NCBI RefSeq assembly: GCF_001679785.1
Contig: NZ_CP016286.1
Coordinates: 992,001-1,056,000, forward strand
Length of the DNA: 64,000 bases
From: Rhizobium leguminosarum
GTDB taxonomy: Bacteria; Pseudomonadota; Alphaproteobacteria; Rhizobiales; Rhizobiaceae
Reading direction: 5' to 3'
The notes beneath the pieces are model-generated. The model saw only the letters and a program-made list of their open reading frames with translations. It made no database searches and was not told the origin of the DNA. Made by a program: the position numbers and the translations under genes. Shown piece after piece: positions 13,750 to 44,705 of this stretch. Within the stretch, counting starts at the first letter, position 1; every line of letters starts with the position of its first letter.

Positions 13750-13980
13750 TCAGTTCGCTTGAGGCTTGTATGCGACATCTTTCCGAACCGAAGCGACGCC
13801 CTTTACCGCGCGAAGCGCATCGAGCGCATCAGGATTGACAGTACCGTTGACAATCATGAAGCGCTCGTGGCTTTGCACCTGTTCGAGGCCTTTCAACTTC
13901 AAGTCGCCGACGACCTCTCCCAAACTGCGGGCCTCCTTTTTATCGATCCGAATGGTAACTTCAATCTTATCGGTCGTCAT
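13750..13980 (-). CDS. free-standing subtilisin-propeptide-like (I9-fold-like) small protein
   Basis: A 76-residue protein whose order of elements (strand KIEVTIRID, helix EVVGDLKLKGLEQV, strand RFMIVNGTV, helix NPDALDALRAVKGV, strand ASVRKDVAYKPQ) is that of the beta-alpha-beta-beta-alpha-beta inhibitor I9 propeptide. The 'VKGVASVRKD' ending is like the propeptide's last strand before the protease. Its start overlaps the protease stop by 4 bases (ATGA), so the two are translationally coupled. Likely a folding chaperone or inhibitor acting in trans on the adjacent protease. The fold call is mine, from pattern only. Confidence 0.6.
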   Translation of the reverse strand: MTTDKIEVTIRIDKKEARSLGEVVGDLKLKGLEQVQSHERFMIVNGTVNPDALDALRAVKGVASVRKDVAYKPQAN

Positions 13981-15326
13981 ACCTCGCCGCTTCCTCTTGC
14001 CTGGAGCAGGCCCTTGCCAACATCCCTAGCAGGGGAAGATAGGGGCTTTGTAAGCTGAATCAAGCGCGCCCATAGCGCCCATCCGCGAAACTTCGGATCA
14101 GACTGAGCAATAAGAGCCGCAACGCCAGCAACATGTGGAGTCGCCATGCTGGTGCCATCCCATCGGTCATACTTATCATCGGGCAAGCTCGAAAATATGT
14201 CGACGCCAGGAGCGGCAATGTCCACTTCCTGACCAGGATTCAAACCGCCGCATGAGAACGACGCCGGCACGAAGGGGCGATCCACGGCGCCAACTCCCAG
14301 GATCGTGGACGCATTCGCCGGAGAACCAACTGGCGCAATCTGTTGAGGACGAGAACTCTCGTTCCCAGCGGCGGCAACAACTAAAGTTCCCGCGTCTAAA
14401 CATACCTGCCCAATTTGCTCGTAGTCGTCACTCGGCGCATCTCCAAATTGCGTTGCAGCGCCTAGCGACATCGAAATAACATGGCAACCTTCATCCAGCG
14501 CCCATTCCATGCCGGCAATGACCGACCGGTCGGTGCCGAAGCCGTCGTCGCCCAGCACCTTTCCAGCGTAGATTTCCGCCTCATGGGCGATGCCGTAGCG
14601 TGGGCCGCTGGTCGGTCGCAATGGACCGCATGCCGTGCCGATGCAATGCGTTCCGTGACCGTGAACATCGCCTTCGGAACTACGTGTTGCAAAGAGCTTC
14701 TTGGTGACGGAGCGGCCGACAAAATCCTGATGAGTTTCGTCAAATCCGGTATCCAGTACTGCTACCTTGATGCCGGCCCCGCTCAGGTCACCTTCGATAG
14801 CCCTGATAGCCTGCAGTCCCCAAGTGTTGCTGGTCTCGTCAAAGGCGGCCCGGGCCACAAGCCCCTCCGCGCCCTTTTTGCCCAATAAGCGATCGACCAG
14901 TTCGTTCACAGCGTCACGATAGCCGAGCAGGTAGTCACGGTCCAAAGAGGTTGCAACGCCGCCCACCTGTGCGAGGTCTAGCCGCATCGTCTGCGGGCCG
15001 CCGAGAGCACGATAGGATCGCTCTGGCCGAGCCGCGCTGATGACCTTCCGCTGCATGGCATTTTGCAACATGGGCTTCAGTCTCTCGCCGTCACGGCGCA
15101 CAATTGCGATTCCGAAACGTTCGAAGTACTGAACATCAGCGCCATCGAAATCATTTGGCACCGCCACGGCGCTGCGAAAATCTTTGGACGATGCGACACG
15201 GAAGCCGCCTTTTTCGAGTTGCTGTACACCCTCGCTCCTTGCTTTGGGTGTAAATCGCACCACCATGCCAAGACCCGATGTGCCGTCGCCTTGTGCGTTG
15301 ACCCTGCCTCGCGTTGATTTCGCCAT
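13977..15326 (-). CDS. S8 family (subtilisin-like) serine protease without signal peptide
   Basis: A 449-residue subtilase. The catalytic triad is seen as Asp192 (VAVLDTGFDETH), His224 (DVHGHGTHCIGTA) and Ser393 (DGTSMATPHVAGVAALIAQS), with the oxyanion Asn322 in VVAAAGNES. The first 150 residues are a charged region including a possible degenerate prodomain (GLGMVVRFTPKARSEGVQQL). No signal peptide is visible, so the enzyme may be cytosolic or exported by a non-Sec route. The ATG at 15326 (GGAGAG upstream) is chosen over one 13 codons earlier. Coupled to the I9-like gene. Confidence 0.88.
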   Translation of the reverse strand: MAKSTRGRVNAQGDGTSGLGMVVRFTPKARSEGVQQLEKGGFRVASSKDFRSAVAVPNDFDGADVQYFERFGIAIVRRDGERLKPMLQNAMQRKVISAARPERSYRALGGPQTMRLDLAQVGGVATSLDRDYLLGYRDAVNELVDRLLGKKGAEGLVARAAFDETSNTWGLQAIRAIEGDLSGAGIKVAVLDTGFDETHQDFVGRSVTKKLFATRSSEGDVHGHGTHCIGTACGPLRPTSGPRYGIAHEAEIYAGKVLGDDGFGTDRSVIAGMEWALDEGCHVISMSLGAATQFGDAPSDDYEQIGQVCLDAGTLVVAAAGNESSRPQQIAPVGSPANASTILGVGAVDRPFVPASFSCGGLNPGQEVDIAAPGVDIFSSLPDDKYDRWDGTSMATPHVAGVAALIAQSDPKFRGWALWARLIQLTKPLSSPARDVGKGLLQARGSGEV

Positions 15327-15996
15327 GATACCAACTCTCCCCCATCTTTCACGGTTTGAAAGCAATACAAAAGCCGCAAGCTTGACGCGGCATACCCGTT
15401 AATCGAGCCGAAACTCGCGTTCGGGACAGCGGCGGCCCTAAAGGTAGATCGATGCGGATTGCCGCTGACTTGCCGCGAGAACACAAAGCTTCGCCGTCCG
15501 AAAATTGGAGCATTCGGCAGGCAAGCATAATAAATTGTACCTTGTAGGTCGATTTCGGGATGTACTTCCCTAGATAAAATCTCGGCGGCAAATATACATC
15601 TTATTGTTGAGTTAGCAAATGAAAATTCTAGTGGATGTTCGTCAGCATTTCATTGCTTTTCAGGTAACCTATACTTCTGCATCTCCTCCCATTGGTTTTC
15701 CTCGTTATTTTTGGGCCTGAGGAGGCCCTGTCCGATTATCGATACTGCCGTGCAATAATGGACTTGCCGCGAAAAGCGCCGGCGATGCCGGCTGTGGCAC
15801 CGCTTACAGCGAGGCGCCAACCGCGGGGCAGGGGGTACGATGCGCACAAAACGAGTGCGCTGAATCCGCACATATATCGACCTGTTTACGGGTAATTTAC
15901 CAACTTTAAGATGAATAATAGCCCAATATGATTAGTTGACTTCGCGTTCTAGGTGTATGAATTATCCCGCGGGCTGGAAAACGGAGGGTGTTGCCA
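15327..15996. other. intergenic region, no gene found
   Basis: About 670 bases between divergent protease and peroxidase genes. The stretch 15500-15960 is clearly AT-richer than its surroundings. Short open frames here have no coding character or ribosome sites. It should hold the promoters of both neighbours, but I could not identify either. Confidence 0.5.
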
Positions 15997-17821
15997 ATGG
16001 CAATCGTTTTTCAATCGCACGGGGGTGCGGAGAAAGAGCGCGCAGTTCCAGGGCCGAGCGTTCGGGCCGGGCGGCCAGCGACGGGTGACGTCGCGGTCGA
16101 TGAAGAAGCTGACTTCGGTTATTTCGTACCGCCATTAGATGCGCCAGAGAATTACCTTCCCAACACGGCGGAAACGCTTGGGGAACTCGATGAGCTCGGC
16201 GAAATGATGATCGATGTTGTCGCGACGCCGACGAGCGAGGATCCGACGGAAGATTCCACGCTCCCGCCTGTCTTCACATATTGGGGACAATTCCTGGATC
16301 ACGAGCTGACGGCCCGAACTGATCGCGAAGGGGCGATCTCGAGCATGGTCAACGCTCACCCGCCTGTCGCCTCGTCGACAGTGGAGAGCCAGTTCAGAAA
16401 TGCTCGCTCGCCCCGTTTCGATCTGGATAGTGTCTACGGCGGATCTGCCGTCGGCGAGGGGATAGATGCAGATGTTGTCAAAGTGATCTCCGGCCTTCGC
16501 CACCCCACGCTGACAAACAAAATGCGTGTAGGGACAGCCGTCGATCCGGGGCCGCTTCCAGACAACCTCGACGAACATCGCGACCTTCCTCGTTATGGCC
16601 AGGTCCAGTCGTCTGTCCGGGAGGCGGCTTTACGTCTGGCTCAGGCCGCGATGACTCCCGAGGCGTTTCAGAAATTCTCCGATAGCTTGCCCCAGCGGGC
16701 GATAATCGGGGATAATCGCAACGATGAAAATCTTGTCGTCGCGCAGTTCCATCTGAGCTTTCTCCGGTTTCATAACAAGGCAGTCGACTATCTTGCATCG
16801 CATGACACGGGCTGGATCGCCGATTTCAGCTCAGCGCAGGCTCTGACAAGACTTCATTACCAATGGTTGATTGTAGAAGGATATCTCAAGGGCGTTTGCG
16901 ATCCGGTTGTGGTGGACCGCGTCGTCAACGATCGGGCATCTCATTTCTTCAAATTCAGAGCCGAGTTCGATGCCCGGAGGCAGAATACCCGGCTCGGCAA
17001 TGCTCTGCCGTTGGAGTTCTCCACCGCAGCCTATCGGTTCGGTCATTCCATGGTCAGAACCTTCTATGACTACAACAAGAACTTTGGGCGGCCGGGCACA
17101 GGTTTTCTACCGCGCGCCACCTTGAAGTTGCTTTTCGAATTCACTGGCGGCGGCGGCAGGCTGGATGACGACAAGAAGCTGCCCAAGAATTGGATAATCG
17201 ACTGGACGCGCTTTACGGGAGCCGATCCCCATGATGCGAGCGATGGGGAGCCGGCCCGTCTTGCCAGGAGGATCGATACGGAGCTTGCTCCGCCATTGCA
17301 TACGCTGTTCAAGGAGGGGGAGGACCAGGCCGACCAACAGCTCAAGGAGTTGTTCAAGAACCTGGCAAGGAGGAACCTTCGTCGGGGCTACAATCTCAGG
17401 CTCCCGACGAAGGTTCCTCCTTCGTCGGGGCTACAATCTCAGGCTCCCGACGGGCCAGGCTTTGCACAAGCATCTCAGGCAAATTGGCGCGGTGCAGTCC
17501 TCGCCGATCCAAGATGTCTCAGCATTGTTCGCCGCGAAGCCCGATTTGAAGAACTTCCTCGCCGGCACTGCATCGCGTTTCCACGAGCGTACGCCGATCT
17601 GGTTCTACATTCTGGCCGAAGCCGAGGCTGCAGGCGGAAATCGATTGGGCGAAGTCGGGAGCTGTCTCGTGGCGTCGACCTTCGTGGGCGTGCTGCTTGC
17701 GGATCCGGACTCGGCTCTTTCGCGTGGGTTCACGCCCAGTCAGAGCCCTCTCAAGATGCCAGACAACTCACCGATCGACTCGATCATCAAATGGATGCGG
17801 TTCGCGGCGGTCATGCCATAG
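15997..17821 (+). pseudogene. animal-type haem peroxidase, disrupted by a 43-bp duplication
   Basis: A haem peroxidase of the animal/myeloperoxidase superfamily. Visible are the distal His102 in TYWGQFLDHELT, the IIGDNRNDENL loop and the proximal His350 in AAYRFGHSMV. After LARRNLRRGYNLRLPT the frame is lost: a 43-base insertion (17410-17452) shifts it by +1. Without the insertion the frame continues GQALHKHLRQIGAV, then FYILAEAEAAGGNRLGEVG, to the stop at 17819-17821, giving 593 residues. As it stands the frame runs on out of phase to 17937. A GGAGGG site precedes the ATG at 15997. No signal peptide. Likely inactive unless the region is resolved differently. Confidence 0.88.
17367..17452. 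repeat. quasi-palindrome with 34-bp direct repeat (template-switch scar)
   Basis: A 34-base direct repeat (17376-17409 and 17419-17452, period 43) that also contains a perfect 20-base inverted repeat (17367-17386 with 17403-17422, loop 16). The spacer between copies is the reverse complement of the sequence just before copy one. This is what is expected if a replication fork copied the opposite strand at a short hairpin (CGTCGGG/CCCGACG) and then returned. Confidence 0.9.
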
Positions 17822-17835
17822 TGCTCGCAAGACTG

Positions 17836-17862
17836 TTGCCTCGCCGCACCGCGGCGAGGCAA
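17836..17862 (+). terminator. hairpin terminator after the peroxidase gene
   Basis: A perfect 12-bp stem TTGCCTCGCCGC/GCGGCGAGGCAA with loop ACC, 14 bases after the peroxidase stop and just before the convergent phhA stop. There is no long T run; it may serve both strands. Confidence 0.6.
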
Positions 17863-17881
17863 ACCGCCATATCATCGGGGT

Positions 17882-18673
17882 TCACGACGCTTTGGCTTCG
17901 AAAGCGGGGGCGAAATCACCCAGCGATTTTGCCTTGAGGATAGTGGCCTCGATATCCTGCTCCACGATCGCTTCAAGATCGGCGAAGCCGTCGATGACAT
18001 AGTAGATCGGCTGGAGGATATCGATCCGATAGGGCGTCCGGAGCACGCTCAGCAGATCGAACGGCCGGAATTCGCACGCCTTGCCTTCCATTGCCGCCTT
18101 CGCTTCGCTTGGCGATGAGACGATGCCCGCGCCGAAGCAGCGGCGGCCTTGCGGCGTATTAATCAGGCCGAATTCGACGGTGAACCAGAAGATCCTGAAC
18201 AGGTGCCATGAATAGCCCTTGCCGAGGCGGACGGCGGTTTCGCCGAAATGCCGGACGAAATTGGCATAGCTCTGGTCGGTCAGCATGGGGCAATGGCCGA
18301 AAACCTCGTGGAACAGGTCCGGTTCCTCGATATAGTCGATATGTTCGCGACGGCGCAGGAAGGTTGCGAGCGGGAATTTGCCTTGCGACAGAAGCTCATA
18401 AAAGCGTGAGGGCGGAATGAGCGCCGGCACGCCTTCGACGCCGAAGCCGGTGGTCTCGTTCAGGCGTCTGTTGACGTCGAGAAGCTGAGGCACCTTATCC
18501 GGCTTCAACCCTAGCATTTTGACGCCGTCCAGATATTCGCGGCAGGCTGTATCGGCCAGCAGTTTCATCTGACGCCGGTAGAGTTCACCCCAGATTGCAT
18601 CTTCATCCGGAGCGTAGTCATACAAACCGTCCGGGCCGGGCAGTTTGGCGGTGTAGCTGCTTTCCTTTGTCAC
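17882..18673 (-). CDS. phhA: phenylalanine 4-monooxygenase
   Basis: A 263-residue pterin- and iron-dependent phenylalanine hydroxylase turning phenylalanine into tyrosine, the entry step of the pathway at 19.9-24.2 kb. The iron ligands are His122 and His127 in DLFHEVFGHCPML and Glu167 in FWFTVEFGLI. The PAH family core IPPSRFYELLSQGKFPLATF is present. Length fits short bacterial enzymes without a regulatory ACT domain. It is divergent from an Lrp/AsnC gene with a gap of about 110-120 bases, so that regulator probably controls it. Confidence 0.95.
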   Translation of the reverse strand: MTKESSYTAKLPGPDGLYDYAPDEDAIWGELYRRQMKLLADTACREYLDGVKMLGLKPDKVPQLLDVNRRLNETTGFGVEGVPALIPPSRFYELLSQGKFPLATFLRRREHIDYIEEPDLFHEVFGHCPMLTDQSYANFVRHFGETAVRLGKGYSWHLFRIFWFTVEFGLINTPQGRRCFGAGIVSSPSEAKAAMEGKACEFRPFDLLSVLRTPYRIDILQPIYYVIDGFADLEAIVEQDIEATILKAKSLGDFAPAFEAKAS

Positions 18674-18796
18674 AGGCTGATCCTCCCGAGAACGGCGCTA
18701 TTCCTGCCATTATGATCCGAGTTTGGAGGATTTTCTTTTCTTTCATGCTGGCTGTCGCCATAATGGTGGCAAATCTTCCCGAATGTGACGCTGAAA

Positions 18797-19258
18797 ATGA
18801 AAGAACCTGGGAATTTTCGTCGCAAGCTTCTGCAACTCGTCCAGGCCGACGGCAGCCTGTCGCTGGCCGACCTGGCGGAAAAGGCCGGCATGTCACAGAG
18901 CTCGGCATGGCGGAAGATCCAGGAGCTGGAAGCCGACGGCGTCATCCGCAAGCGTGTGACATTGCTCGATCCAGGAAAACTTGATCTCAAGCTCTGCGTG
19001 ATCGCGCATGTGACGCTGGAGAATCACCACGAAGAGGCGGTCGCATCTTTCGCTTCGATGGTGCTGGAGCGGCCTGAGATCATGGAATGCTACGCCCTGT
19101 CAGGCGCCTTCGACTACATGCTGAAGATAAGGGCAAGCGACGTGGAAAGCTACGAAGCCTTCATGACCCGCTATCTCATGCGCAACCCGCATGTGCGCAC
19201 GGTCGTCTCGAGCTTCGTGCTGCGCGAGCTGAAATTCTCGACCGAATTGCCACTCTAG
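18797..19258 (+). CDS. Lrp/AsnC-family transcriptional regulator (divergent from phhA)
   Basis: A 153-residue Lrp/AsnC protein. A helix-turn-helix (SLADLAEKAGMSQSSAWRKI) and QELEADGVIRKRVTLLDPGK are followed by a RAM ligand domain (PEIMECYALSGAFDYMLKIR). The start is uncertain: GTG at 18785 and ATG at 18797 are both possible and neither has a strong ribosome site. The gene pair with phhA suggests response to an aromatic amino acid. Confidence 0.9.
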   Translation: MKEPGNFRRKLLQLVQADGSLSLADLAEKAGMSQSSAWRKIQELEADGVIRKRVTLLDPGKLDLKLCVIAHVTLENHHEEAVASFASMVLERPEIMECYALSGAFDYMLKIRASDVESYEAFMTRYLMRNPHVRTVVSSFVLRELKFSTELPL

Positions 19259-19308
19259 ATATGACTGCGGGGCGCGATGCCGTCTCCATCATCGCGTGCT
19301 GTCGCCAA

Positions 19309-19788
19309 TCAGTGACCCGGCATCAGCACCGGAAAGCCTTCGAATGTCTTCAGCGTGTCGAGGACGATGGACGTCTTCACGTGTTGCACCGACTCGTGGG
19401 GCAACAGCACGTCGTTGACGAATTTGGAGAGGTCGGCAAGTCCGCGGGTCGCGACCGTCAGGTGATAGTCCATTTCACCGGTCAGCGCATAGGCTTCGAG
19501 AACTTCCGGCAGTCCGTTGATCAGTTGCGAAAACCGGCGGGCATTGTCTCTGTTATGGGTCGCAAGCGTCACGGAGATGACCACCAGCATATCGAGACCA
19601 AGCTTCTGCCGATCGAGGTAGGCGCGGTAGCTGCGGATATATCCTTCAGCCTCCAGTCTTGTGCGCCGGCGTGAACATTGCGACGGTGAAAGCCCGATCC
19701 GCTCGCCCAACTCGTTGTTCGTCAGCCTGCCGTCCTTTTGAAGTTCCTGGAGCAGGCGCAGATCCAATTTATCGAGTGGCTCATCCAT
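19309..19788 (-). CDS. Lrp/AsnC-family transcriptional regulator (divergent from hpd)
   Basis: A 159-residue Lrp/AsnC protein with LDLRLLQELQKDGRLTNNEL, the helix-turn-helix GERIGLSPSQCSRRRTRLEA and a RAM domain containing PEVLEAYALTGEMDYHLTVA. It is transcribed away from hpd across a 130-base region with three inverted repeats built from a TTGCA half-site, so it probably controls both itself and the homogentisate operon. Confidence 0.92.
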   Translation of the reverse strand: MDEPLDKLDLRLLQELQKDGRLTNNELGERIGLSPSQCSRRRTRLEAEGYIRSYRAYLDRQKLGLDMLVVISVTLATHNRDNARRFSQLINGLPEVLEAYALTGEMDYHLTVATRGLADLSKFVNDVLLPHESVQHVKTSIVLDTLKTFEGFPVLMPGH

Positions 19789-19848
19789 TGCACGAAATCT
19801 CCAATATACTCACGGATCGTGCATAATCTCTTCCCATGGCATAAAGAA

Positions 19849-19898
19849 TGCAAGAACTTTGCACGCGTTTTGGGCCACACTTTGCATATCAAATGCAA
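19849..19898. promoter_or_regulatory. paired inverted repeats, likely Lrp/AsnC operator of hpd
   Basis: TGCAA-N5-TTGCA at 19849-19863 and TTGCAT-N5-ATGCAA at 19882-19898, centres about 34 bases apart. A third pair, TGCACGA/TCGTGCA, overlaps the regulator's own start near 19790-19824. Repeated sites in phase with the helix are typical of Lrp-type octamers. Assignment to this regulator is inferred from position. Confidence 0.5.
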
Positions 19899-19918
19899 TC
19901 TCCTCTGGAGGAAAGAAA

Positions 19919-21028
19919 ATGGGTCCTTTCCCGCATGATGCGCCGCCCTCGGAAATCACCGCCGACAATCCGGCCGGCACCGACGGCTTCGAATTCGTCG
20001 AATTCGCCCATCCTGAGCCCGAGACGCTGCGCGAGCTCTTCACACGCATGGGCTACACCGCCGTCGCCAAGCACAAGACGAAAGATATCACCGTCTGGAG
20101 ACAGGGTGACATCAACTATGTCCTGAACGCCGAACCGGGCAGTCATGCCGCGCGTTTCGTCGCAAATCACGGTCCCTGCGCCCCATCGATGGCCTGGCGC
20201 GTCGTCGATGCCAAGCACGCTTTCGACCACGCGGTATCAAAAGGCGCTGTTCCCTATGAAGGGGACGACAAGATGCTCGACGTCCCGGCGATTGTCGGCA
20301 TCGGCGGCTCGCTGCTCTATTTCGTCGAGACCTATGGCGCCAAGGGATCGGCTTACGAGGCCGAGTTCGACTGGCTTGGCGAGCGCAACCCGCATCCTGA
20401 AGGCATCGGCTTCTATTATCTCGATCACCTGACGCACAACGTCTTTCGCGGCAACATGGACAAGTGGTGGGATTTTTACCGCAACCTGTTCAATTTCAAG
20501 CAGATCCACTTTTTCGATATTGATGGGCGCATCACCGGTCTGGTGAGCCGCGCCATCACCTCGCCCTGTGGCAAAATCCGCATTCCGCTGAATGAATCGA
20601 AGGACGACACCAGCCAGATCGAGGAATATCTGAAGAAGTACAAGGGCGAGGGCATTCAGCACATCGCCGTTGGAACGGAGGATATTTACGACGCCACCGA
20701 CAGGCTTGCCGACAACGGCCTGCGCTTCATGCCGGGTCCGCCGGAGACCTATTACGACATGTCCTATGAGCGCGTGAACGGCCATAGCGAACCTGTCGAA
20801 CGCATGAAGAAACACGGCATCCTCATCGATGGCGAAGGTGTGGTGAATGGCGGCATGACGAAGATCCTGCTGCAGATCTTCTCCAAGACCGTCATCGGGC
20901 CGATTTTCTTCGAGTTCATCCAGCGCAAGGGCGACGAAGGCTTCGGCGAAGGCAATTTCCGGGCTCTCTTTGAGTCGATCGAGGCCGATCAGATCAAGCG
21001 TGGTGTCATCGGCACTGCAGCGGAGTAA
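19919..21028 (+). CDS. hpd: 4-hydroxyphenylpyruvate dioxygenase
   Basis: A 369-residue VOC-fold, Fe(II)-dependent dioxygenase converting 4-hydroxyphenylpyruvate to homogentisate. The second VOC module contains [19 protein letters not shown] with a metal His, and the C-terminal segment [19 protein letters not shown] carries the final metal Glu and closing helix. The ATG at 19919 follows GGAGGAAAG. First gene of the homogentisate operon. Frame intact. Confidence 0.95.
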
Positions 21029-21035
21029 ACTCACT

Positions 21036-21066
21036 AGCGCCGCGCATCTTTCAGACGCGCGGCGCT
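21036..21066. repeat. hairpin between hpd and hmgA, RIME-related arm
   Basis: A 10-bp perfect stem AGCGCCGCGC/GCGCGGCGCT with an 11-base loop, 8 bases after the hpd stop. Its sequence matches the GC-rich arm of the larger RIME-like repeats in this window. Within an operon it may stabilise or attenuate the transcript. Confidence 0.6.
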
Positions 21067-21089
21067 GGAGTGTTCGGGGAGGAGTGAGC

Positions 21090-22451
21090 ATGGACCAGAC
21101 ATCGATCCAGACGTCGGATGGTGAAGCCGCGACAGCAAACACGCTGAAATATTTGCCGGGGTTCGGCAATGACTTCGAAACCGAGTCGCTCCCCGGCGCC
21201 TTGCCGCAAGGCCAGAACAGCCCGCAGAAGTGCAACTATGGTCTCTATGCGGAGCAGCTTTCCGGCTCGCCGTTCACCGCGCCGCGCGGGACCAACGAAA
21301 GGTCCTGGCTTTACCGCATCCGCCCGAGCGTGCGTCATACCCGCCGCTTCTCCAACGCGTCCTATCCGCTCTGGAAAACCGCGCCGTGCCTGGACGAACA
21401 TTCGCTTCCCCTCGGCCAGCTTCGCTGGGATCCCATCCCCGCACCCGCGGAAAGGCTGACATTCCTCGAAGGGGTGCGGACCATCACGACGGCAGGCGAT
21501 GCCGCCACCCAGGTGGGCATGTCAGCCCATGCCTATGTCTTCAATGAGGACATGGTCGACGATTACTTCTTCAATGCCGATGGTGAACTGCTGATCGTGC
21601 CGCAGCTCGGCGCCATCAGAGTGTTCACCGAAATGGGCATCATGGACGTCGAGCCCCTGGAAATATGCCTGATCCCGCGCGGCATGATGTTCAAGATTCT
21701 GAAGGGCGGCGAGCAGACGGTCTGGCGTGGCTATATATGCGAGAATTACGGCGCGAAATTCACCCTGCCGGACCGCGGGCCGATCGGCGCCAACTGCCTG
21801 GCAAACCCGCGCGATTTCAAGACGCCTGTCGCCGCATTCGAGGACAAGGAAACGCCTTGCCGCGTGCATGTGAAGTGGTGCGGAAAATTCTATGTCACGG
21901 ATATCGGCCATTCGCCGCTGGATGTGGTGGCCTGGCATGGCAACTACGCCCCGTTCAAATACGATCTGCGGACATTTTCTCCTGTTGGCGCGATCCGCTT
22001 CGATCATCCCGATCCGTCGATTTTTTCTGTGCTGACCGCGCCGACCGAAGATGCGGGCACGGCGAATGTCGATTTCGTGATCTTTCCGCCGCGCTGGCTG
22101 GTCGCCGAGCACACCTTCCGTCCGCCCTGGTACCACCGCAACATCATGAGCGAATTCATGGGGCTGATCCACGGCCAGTATGACGCCAAGGAGGAGGGCT
22201 TCGTGCCTGGTGGCATGAGCCTGCACAACATGATGCTTCCGCACGGGCCGGATGCGCTCGCCTTCGAAAAGGCATCCAATACCGAGCTCAAACCGGTGAA
22301 GCTCGATCACACCATGGCCTTCATGTTCGAGACCCGGTACCCGCAGCAACTGACGAAATACGCAGCCGAGCTCGAGACGCTGCAGGATAATTACCTGGAA
22401 TGCTGGGACGGCCTGGAACGCAAGTTCGACGGAACCTCTGGTATCAAGTGA
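21090..22451 (+). CDS. hmgA: homogentisate 1,2-dioxygenase
   Basis: A 453-residue cupin-fold, Fe(II) dioxygenase opening the homogentisate ring to maleylacetoacetate. Typical elements are [20 protein letters not shown] at the start, [20 protein letters not shown], and the C-terminal iron region [28 protein letters not shown] lies about 8 bases before the ATG at 21090; the frame is open further upstream but without conserved sequence. Second gene of the operon. Confidence 0.95.
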
Positions 22452-43737: not shown

Positions 43738-44705
43738 ATGCTGCCAAACCCCACTCTGGACCAATTGCAGGTGTTTCTGACCGTTGCCGAGACCGGCAGC
43801 TTCTCGGCCGCTTCGCGGGCGCTGAACCGTGCACAGTCGGTCGTGAGCTATACGATCGCCAATCTGGAGGCGCAGCTCGAAGTGCCGCTTTTTGAGCGTT
43901 CCGGCGCGCGCCAGCCGAAGCTGACGGAGGCGGGCAAGGCGATGCTGGAGGATGCGCGGCGCATTCTGGGCGATCTGCAAGTCATGCGCGCGCGCGTCAA
44001 GAGCCTGAGGGAAGGGCTCGAAGCGGAGGTTTCCGTCGCCATCAGTGTCATGGTGCCTTCGCGAGCCCTGGTGGACGTCCTCCGCGAATTCCGCGAGATG
44101 TTTCCATCCGTTTCGTTAAGCCTCAATGTCGGTGAGCTCGGAATGGTCATGGATCTCGTCCTCAGCGGCAAGGCGACGATCGGGATTGGCGGCGCGGTCG
44201 TCAAGCAGGACGATTCGATCGTCACGGAGCGGATCGGTCATTCCTTCATGTTGCCGGTTGCCGCGCATAACCACCCGCTTGCCGGGATCGGCCGGCCACT
44301 GACGCTCGGCGACGTCCGCGAGGAAGTGCAACTCGTCGTCACCGATGCGTCGGGACGGACGAAGGGGCGCGATTTCAACGTTCTCTCCTACAAGACGTGG
44401 CGTGTCAGCGATATTGCGACGAAGCACCAGCTCATCACGGCCGGCCTTGGCTGGGGCGGCCTTCCGGCTTCCGTGATTCATGACGATCTGACGAGCGGCA
44501 GGCTCGTTCATCTCGATCTGGATGCCTACGAACAGGGGAGTATCCCATATATTCGGTCCGTCAGCTCGCCAACCCGCCCGGACCTGCCGCCACCTGGATG
44601 ATCGACGCGTTCCGCACGCGGCTTTCCGCCTGCCCGAGCCAAGCCGATTTCCATGCTCAGATAGCGGAACTGCAGGACGCTGGTACGCCGCTCGCGGCCG
44701 AATGA
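43738..44705 (+). pseudogene. LysR-family regulator, C-terminal frameshift at a G run
   Basis: The first 265 or so residues are a normal LysR regulator (TLDQLQVFLTVAETGSFSAA, helix-turn-helix ASRALNRAQSVVSYTI, effector domain). At GGGG 44535-44538 the frame slips and ends early at 44601. With one more G the protein reads DAYEQGEYPIYSVRQLANPP, then AATWMIDAFRTRLS, to a stop at 44703-44705, for 322 residues. The final helix is usually needed for a stable fold. A single-base error in the G run is an equal explanation. Confidence 0.78.

Follow-up and report, generated by a model that had tools for sequence, protein, structure and literature searches.

A gene encoding a haem peroxidase in Rhizobium leguminosarum is interrupted by 43 extra bases, which were probably all made by one double template switch. 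They throw the sequence out of frame beyond residue 471 of 593, and the gene is now probably a decaying pseudogene rather than a switch. The gene lies in the window (the whole 64,000-nucleotide stretch of DNA that was analysed), which sits on a 5.04-Mb contig of an 8.57-Mb genome. The site of interruption has a direct repeat of 34 nt, 100% identical between its two copies at a spacing of 43, and an inverted repeat of 20 nt, 100% complementary, with its right arm at 17403-17422 and a loop of 16 nt (Table 1), both as the original prediction had described them. That prediction had also read the spacer between the direct copies as an inverted copy of the bases preceding the first one; an exact 13-nt reverse complement is indeed present, with the small correction that the 20-bp inverted repeat includes an old 7-bp stem, which has been lengthened by 13 bp. 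The 43 new bases comprise a 13-nt inverted copy and a 30-nt direct copy; since their number is not divisible by three, the reading frame shifts.

Table 1. Features of the peroxidase gene and of the insertion within it (positions in the window)
Feature	Position	Strand	Basis and remarks
5' part of the peroxidase gene, in frame, residues 1-471	15997..17409	+	Open reading frame; PF03098 match; WGQFLDHEL and FGHSM lie within
Left arm of the perfect 20-bp inverted repeat	17367..17386	+	Repeat analysis; bases 17367-17379, its first 13 nt, make up the part copied in reverse
34-bp direct repeat, first copy	17376..17409	+	Repeat analysis
Left side (CGTCGGG) of the pre-existing 7-bp seed stem	17380..17386	+	Seen in natural empty alleles, e.g. 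L007
Right side (CCCGACG) of the pre-existing seed stem	17403..17409	+	First switch placed within it or just after; 40 equivalent exact solutions, after 17402-17409
Inverted copy of 13 nt, ending in the CCTT putatively used for the return	17410..17422	+	Exact reverse complement of 17367-17379
Extra bases (43), placement ambiguous within the repeat	17410..17452	+	Lacking in all 17 distinct orthologous sequences
34-bp direct repeat, second copy	17419..17452	+	Repeat analysis
Read-through tail of the shifted frame	17410..17937	+	Without a homologue found
Severed 3' part, from about codon 472 to the stop, out of frame	17453..17821	+	4 private amino-acid changes

A scan of 2,152,875 bases was made for direct repeats (12 bp or more) with a spacer lying wholly in one arm of an inverted repeat (10 bp or more), and it found a single site, the peroxidase insertion. 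These bases comprised the 64,000 bases of the window, 1,160,000 bases from other stretches of the same genome, and 928,875 bases from relatives (545,508 from two relatives and 383,367 from around orthologues, some of them overlapping). The same scan gave 0 matches in 1,000,000 bases of random sequence generated under a dinucleotide model, and the arrangement of repeats is therefore not attributable to chance. An earlier scan of 1,392,875 bases, which required longer repeats and less filling of the spacer, again returned the peroxidase site alone.

Seventy loci (L001, L002, L004, L048, L067, and L076-L115 being left out) were searched for both flanks of the insertion, and both were located at E 1e-3 in 29 of them, the other loci being too distant or without the gene. 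The flanks are separated by 34 bases in all 29 locus entries, compared to 77 in the window. These entries represent 17 distinct orthologous sequences, 12 from rhizobial relatives that agree with the window nearly letter for letter at the site and 5 from more distant sources, and not one of the 17 has the extra bases; comparison with the orthologues of close relatives, which had been put forward as a check on the original prediction, thus found the uninterrupted site throughout and not an insertion shared by all relatives. A 27-base sequence spanning the junction (up to 3 mismatches being allowed) occurs in one of 148 Rhizobium genomes, the source genome itself. These genome collections hold one genome per species, a broken gene is often without a deposited protein, and strains of the same species may share the insert. 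DNA of the gene is matched in 17 of the 148 genomes, in 13 of which (the source included) the match extends over the whole 1379-base query, and relatives are present in seven plasmid records (six from Rhizobium and one from Phyllobacterium), none of them nearer than about 88%.

Over the 76 bases used, the 43-base insert aside, the allele of Rhizobium johnstonii 3841 (L007) does not differ from the window. When all two-switch events on this allele were enumerated, 40 exact descriptions of the window sequence were obtained, without a mismatch; the 40 solutions are one event seen through microhomologies of 7 bases at the departure (17402-17409) and 4 bases at the return (17376-17380). No tandem duplication on L007 fits, the best leaving 5 mismatches. 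The exact fit and the 7-bp seed stem support the earlier proposal of a single strand-switching event at a short hairpin. An imperfect inverted repeat has become more perfect, as in quasipalindrome mutation, the stem growing from 7 bp in L007 to 20 bp, and three features of a short-range template switch are present: a reverse-complement insert, an exact two-switch fit, and a pre-event allele in relatives. The starting hairpin is modest: as single-stranded DNA, a 45-base stretch of L007, two bases short of the full stem, has a folding energy of -7.0 kcal/mol for two small hairpins together, and 26 of 200 shuffled sequences fold at least as well (z = -1.19), compared to -25.9 kcal/mol for the extended hairpin (17367-17422), which 0 of 200 shuffled sequences equalled.

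According to the proposed mechanism, a nascent strand, having reached the end of ...CCCGACG, would fold back through the 7-bp stem CGTCGGG/CCCGACG and serve as its own template for 13 nt (from 17379 back to 17367), thereby extending the 7-bp hairpin to 20 bp. CCTT, now at the 3' end, would then pair again with the CCTT of the template 30 bases upstream (17376-17379), and normal copying would resume with 30 bases repeated, giving 13 + 30 = 43. A regressed or stalled fork, at which the nascent end is free, would be the likeliest setting for both steps, and the copy-extended hairpin might of itself keep the slipped strand in position. A mirror-image event on the opposite strand, with departure at the 4-base match and return at the 7-base one, would be equally consistent with the sequence, and is considered less likely only because its first contact would be weaker. 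In four-point notation the order of the switch points is 3-2-4-1 or 3-4-2-1, with re-entry before departure.

That imperfect inverted repeats can give rise to snap-back template switching is established for Escherichia coli, and the Rhizobium event as proposed here resembles the quasipalindrome mutations of that organism (the thyA hotspot and lacZ QP5/QP6), in which, as described in two reports (PMC7202029, PMC6357072), the nascent strand folds back, copies itself, and perfects the repeat. The QP5/QP6 reporters measure a 4-bp change in an 18-bp imperfect palindrome, whereas the Rhizobium event returns 30 bases upstream and leaves a 43-bp insertion together with a direct repeat. Among template switches of great apes there are many in which re-entry precedes departure (the '4 before 1' class of the four-point model), for which the new duplex must be opened, according to PMC7954356. 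The Rhizobium event is of the same class, but is located in a bacterial coding gene whose frame it breaks, and its hairpin seed and both microhomologies are visible. A regressed fork at which the free 3' end folds back is described in PMC6357072, and such a fork could supply the duplex opening that events with re-entry before departure require. There is also a likeness to the extension of stems in rRNA genes, where one half of a stem gains an insertion copied from the other half (PMC8794818), except that pairing matters in rRNA genes, whereas the Rhizobium hairpin is without an evident function. PMC10710837 mentions mutations of the quasipalindrome type in general terms, and among the papers listed by the literature search none has a link between quasipalindrome mutation and phase variation as its subject, although one contains both terms.

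The open frame of the interrupted gene begins at 15988 (GTG), with an ATG at 15997 that is the start used by relatives. A profile search matched the gene to PF03098 (An_peroxidase, animal haem peroxidase; 51.1 bits against a cut-off of 25, residues 234-363), in agreement with the identity first predicted for it; no NCBIfam model matched the gene. The protein encoded before the break is 97-99% identical to those of R. leguminosarum, R. johnstonii, R. laguerreae, R. sophorae, and another Rhizobium, which places the organism in that complex. Translation in the upstream open frame gives ...RRNLRRGYNLRLPT followed by KVPPSS..., and the usual ...LRRGYNLRLPTGQALHKHL... resumes in another frame past the second copy, continuing to a stop at 17819-17821. 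The broken frame, another element of the original prediction, is confirmed by the relatives, which encode an uninterrupted 593 residues in all 7 cases read. With the frame shifted after T471, the last 122 residues (472-593), about a fifth of the protein, are lost.

The break falls between T471 and G472, both of which are invariant, as are Q473 and A474, in all 36 aligned homologues (chosen from the 120 listed of 2177 found), and the lost C-terminal part contains many more invariant columns, including those of L520, W521, G537, and E538. It is situated just 3' of an N..R......LP motif that aligns with lactoperoxidase. In an orthologue (P0002), the sequences WGQFLDHEL (distal) and YRFGHSM (proximal) align with myeloperoxidase or lactoperoxidase, weakly (whole-protein E of 0.005 and 0.017), and the window gene encodes the same two motifs upstream of the break. 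We take WGQFLDHEL and FGHSM to be the distal and proximal histidine motifs, respectively, with a catalytic role; on this alignment, the haem site would be encoded upstream of the break; the conserved C-terminal fifth is gone. An AlphaFold model built from the 36 aligned homologues was unusable (mean pLDDT 35), so the effect of losing the C-terminus is judged from sequence alignment. The shifted tail extends across the end of the convergent gene 17882-18673; it is matched by none of the 120 homologous proteins listed (of 2177 found), and a search with the tail alone found no homologue among 2546 candidates. We infer that the product of the shifted gene would be inactive. A programmed frameshift across the hairpin was considered and rejected, no in-frame heptamer of the X-XXY-YYZ type being present at 17301-17470. 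A second copy of the gene in the genome was likewise rejected: the family occurs once, and the one further DNA match comes from the inverted repeat of the gene itself. The available part of a study of bacterial animal-type peroxidases (PMC3396595) was of no help on the function of the Rhizobium gene.

Private substitutions of the window sequence, although very small in number, are distributed differently before and after the break. In the severed 3' part, 4 changes alter an amino acid and 1 is silent, compared to 21 silent and 3 amino-acid changes in the same part of six relatives pooled (Fisher p = 0.007) and to 4 silent and 0 amino-acid changes in the window's own 5' part (p = 0.048). The 5' part is comparable to that of the six relatives (75 silent and 17 amino-acid changes; p = 1.0); in a dead gene about 3 of its 4 private changes would be expected to alter an amino acid (338 silent and 1075 amino-acid sites), and none does. 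An earlier count by codon against five relatives gave 6 silent and 0 amino-acid changes in the 5' part of the window, 1 and 4 in its 3' part, and 21 and 4 in the 3' part of the relatives, in agreement with the later count. Among the four 3' changes is L520I, at a position occupied by L in 135 of 137 other sequences; two of the four changed residues also occur in more distant homologues (R480 in 9 and I583 in 1). At codon 377, in the 5' part, the window has K, where 25 close relatives have Q or R and 5 more distant proteins have K; this residue change was presumably left out of the private counts because the changed base is common to one relative.

The neighbouring genes have ordinary ratios of private changes (9 silent and 3 amino-acid in 17882-18673; 6 and 2 in 18785-19258), and so the region is not simply badly sequenced. 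Three other genes were dropped from this comparison: hppD, for which one relative was absent (20 silent and 3 amino-acid private changes were counted against the remaining five), and hmgA and the protease gene, whose chosen spans could not be aligned without gaps to any of the six relatives. The severed 3' part of the peroxidase gene looks to be drifting. Its excess of amino-acid changes points to a real break, old enough to matter, and argues against a gene that is regularly switched on. Either the break is recent, chance accounting for some of the skew in the 3' part, or selection still acts on the truncated product.

The insertion has been seen in one assembly only, in which a one-base difference in the length of a G run, in the region of 44535, could be a sequencing error. 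An artefact of assembly or library preparation, with the strain really carrying the empty allele, is nevertheless improbable, for no similar signature is present in the 1,160,000 other bases of the same genome, a 43-base copy that includes an inverted 13-mer is not an error of the homopolymer type, and the amino-acid drift of the 3' part, as expected of a truly severed region, argues mildly in the same direction. The end product could conceivably also have been reached by two separate events, a small inverted insertion and then a tandem duplication, but a single two-switch event already fits without a mismatch and with microhomology at both switches, and no intermediate allele is found among the 17 orthologues, making the two-step route very unlikely.

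The original prediction went further in proposing that the gene is phase-variable, the insert being gained and lost by slippage between the 34-bp copies so that the gene switches within the population. Precise deletion could plausibly act on 34-bp direct copies with a perfect hairpin between them, and in Mycobacterium smegmatis direct repeats raise the precise deletion of intervening DNA about 1,000-fold over background (PMC3519483); precise reversal between the copies is mechanistically possible, and the 5' part of the gene appears constrained. This part of the prediction was not sustained, and phase variation is now very improbable: the extra bases are in 0 of 17 orthologues and the junction in 1 of 148 Rhizobium genomes, so that a second state is absent from all 17 and from the other 147 (which include few strains of the same species); the shifted tail is in 0 of 2546 candidate deposited proteins; the excess of amino-acid changes (4, against 1 silent) lies in the 3' part, which an on/off gene would keep under selection; and the same gene is apparently broken elsewhere in other ways (P0026 and P0121). 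Equally remote is the broader notion that a fold-back double switch breaks a gene and at the same time builds its own route of reversal, short hairpins in coding sequence being latent one-step switches, here with the peroxidase turned off. The gene might instead be altered and not dead, its truncated protein of 471 residues with a foreign tail being still functional, as the purely silent private changes of the 5' part (4 silent, 0 amino-acid) and the location of the haem-ligand motifs upstream of the break would allow; this is unlikely in view of the loss of about a fifth of the protein with its many invariant columns (L520, W521, G537, and E538 among them), and of a tail that is without a match among the 120 homologues listed (of 2177 found) and in the tail-only search.

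Two other proteins of the family have sequences that suggest further breaks in this peroxidase gene. The sequence of P0026 (502 residues) agrees with the family as far as KEG and then passes into another frame, at or near a G-rich run approximately 90 bases before the site of the extra bases in the window, a placement made from the protein only and for a change that may be a sequencing error. P0121 (160 residues), from a 5.12-Mb contig of R. leguminosarum, represents a C-terminal portion without disruption at the insertion site of the window, and so its break, if any, is further upstream. The ordinary picture appears to be that of a patchily distributed peroxidase that is lost now and then in these rhizobia.

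The interruption is a real lesion and a very clear instance of a two-switch insertion whose pre-event allele is available, probably made by a mutation mechanism that is already known. It is an unusually legible case: one can read the sequence as it stood before the event, the seed stem, the stretch that was copied, and the microhomology of the return, and inverted and direct repeats occur together in the product. Such insertions would otherwise be taken for unexplained indels or faults of the assembler, and this one provides a ready-made sequence for measuring how frequently fold-back insertions revert. The biology of the peroxidase gene itself is ordinary.

Some other differences from relatives were observed in the window. 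The gene at 43738-44601 (+ strand), which we take to encode a LysR-like regulator, has one G fewer in a G run (44530-44540) than its counterpart in G082, with a different frame at the C-terminus and a product of 287 amino acids versus 322 in G082; this difference may reflect single-base homopolymer errors or real frameshifts in the assembly. A whole-frame comparison of the open reading frames of the window with those of two relatives gave many that are broken, most of them apparently shadow frames, which were not counted. The peroxidase gene adjoins genes (17882-22451 and on) that by their look are presumably for the breakdown of aromatic amino acids (a hydroxylase, Lrp-like regulators, and dioxygenases), the convergent gene 17882-18673 being presumably phenylalanine-hydroxylase-like. 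On the other side, the gene at 13977-15325 (- strand), presumably subtilisin-like, has 6 gap positions in total when aligned with each of six close relatives, and the counterparts of window positions of approximately 13666 and 13705 are separated by approximately 12 kb in G061.
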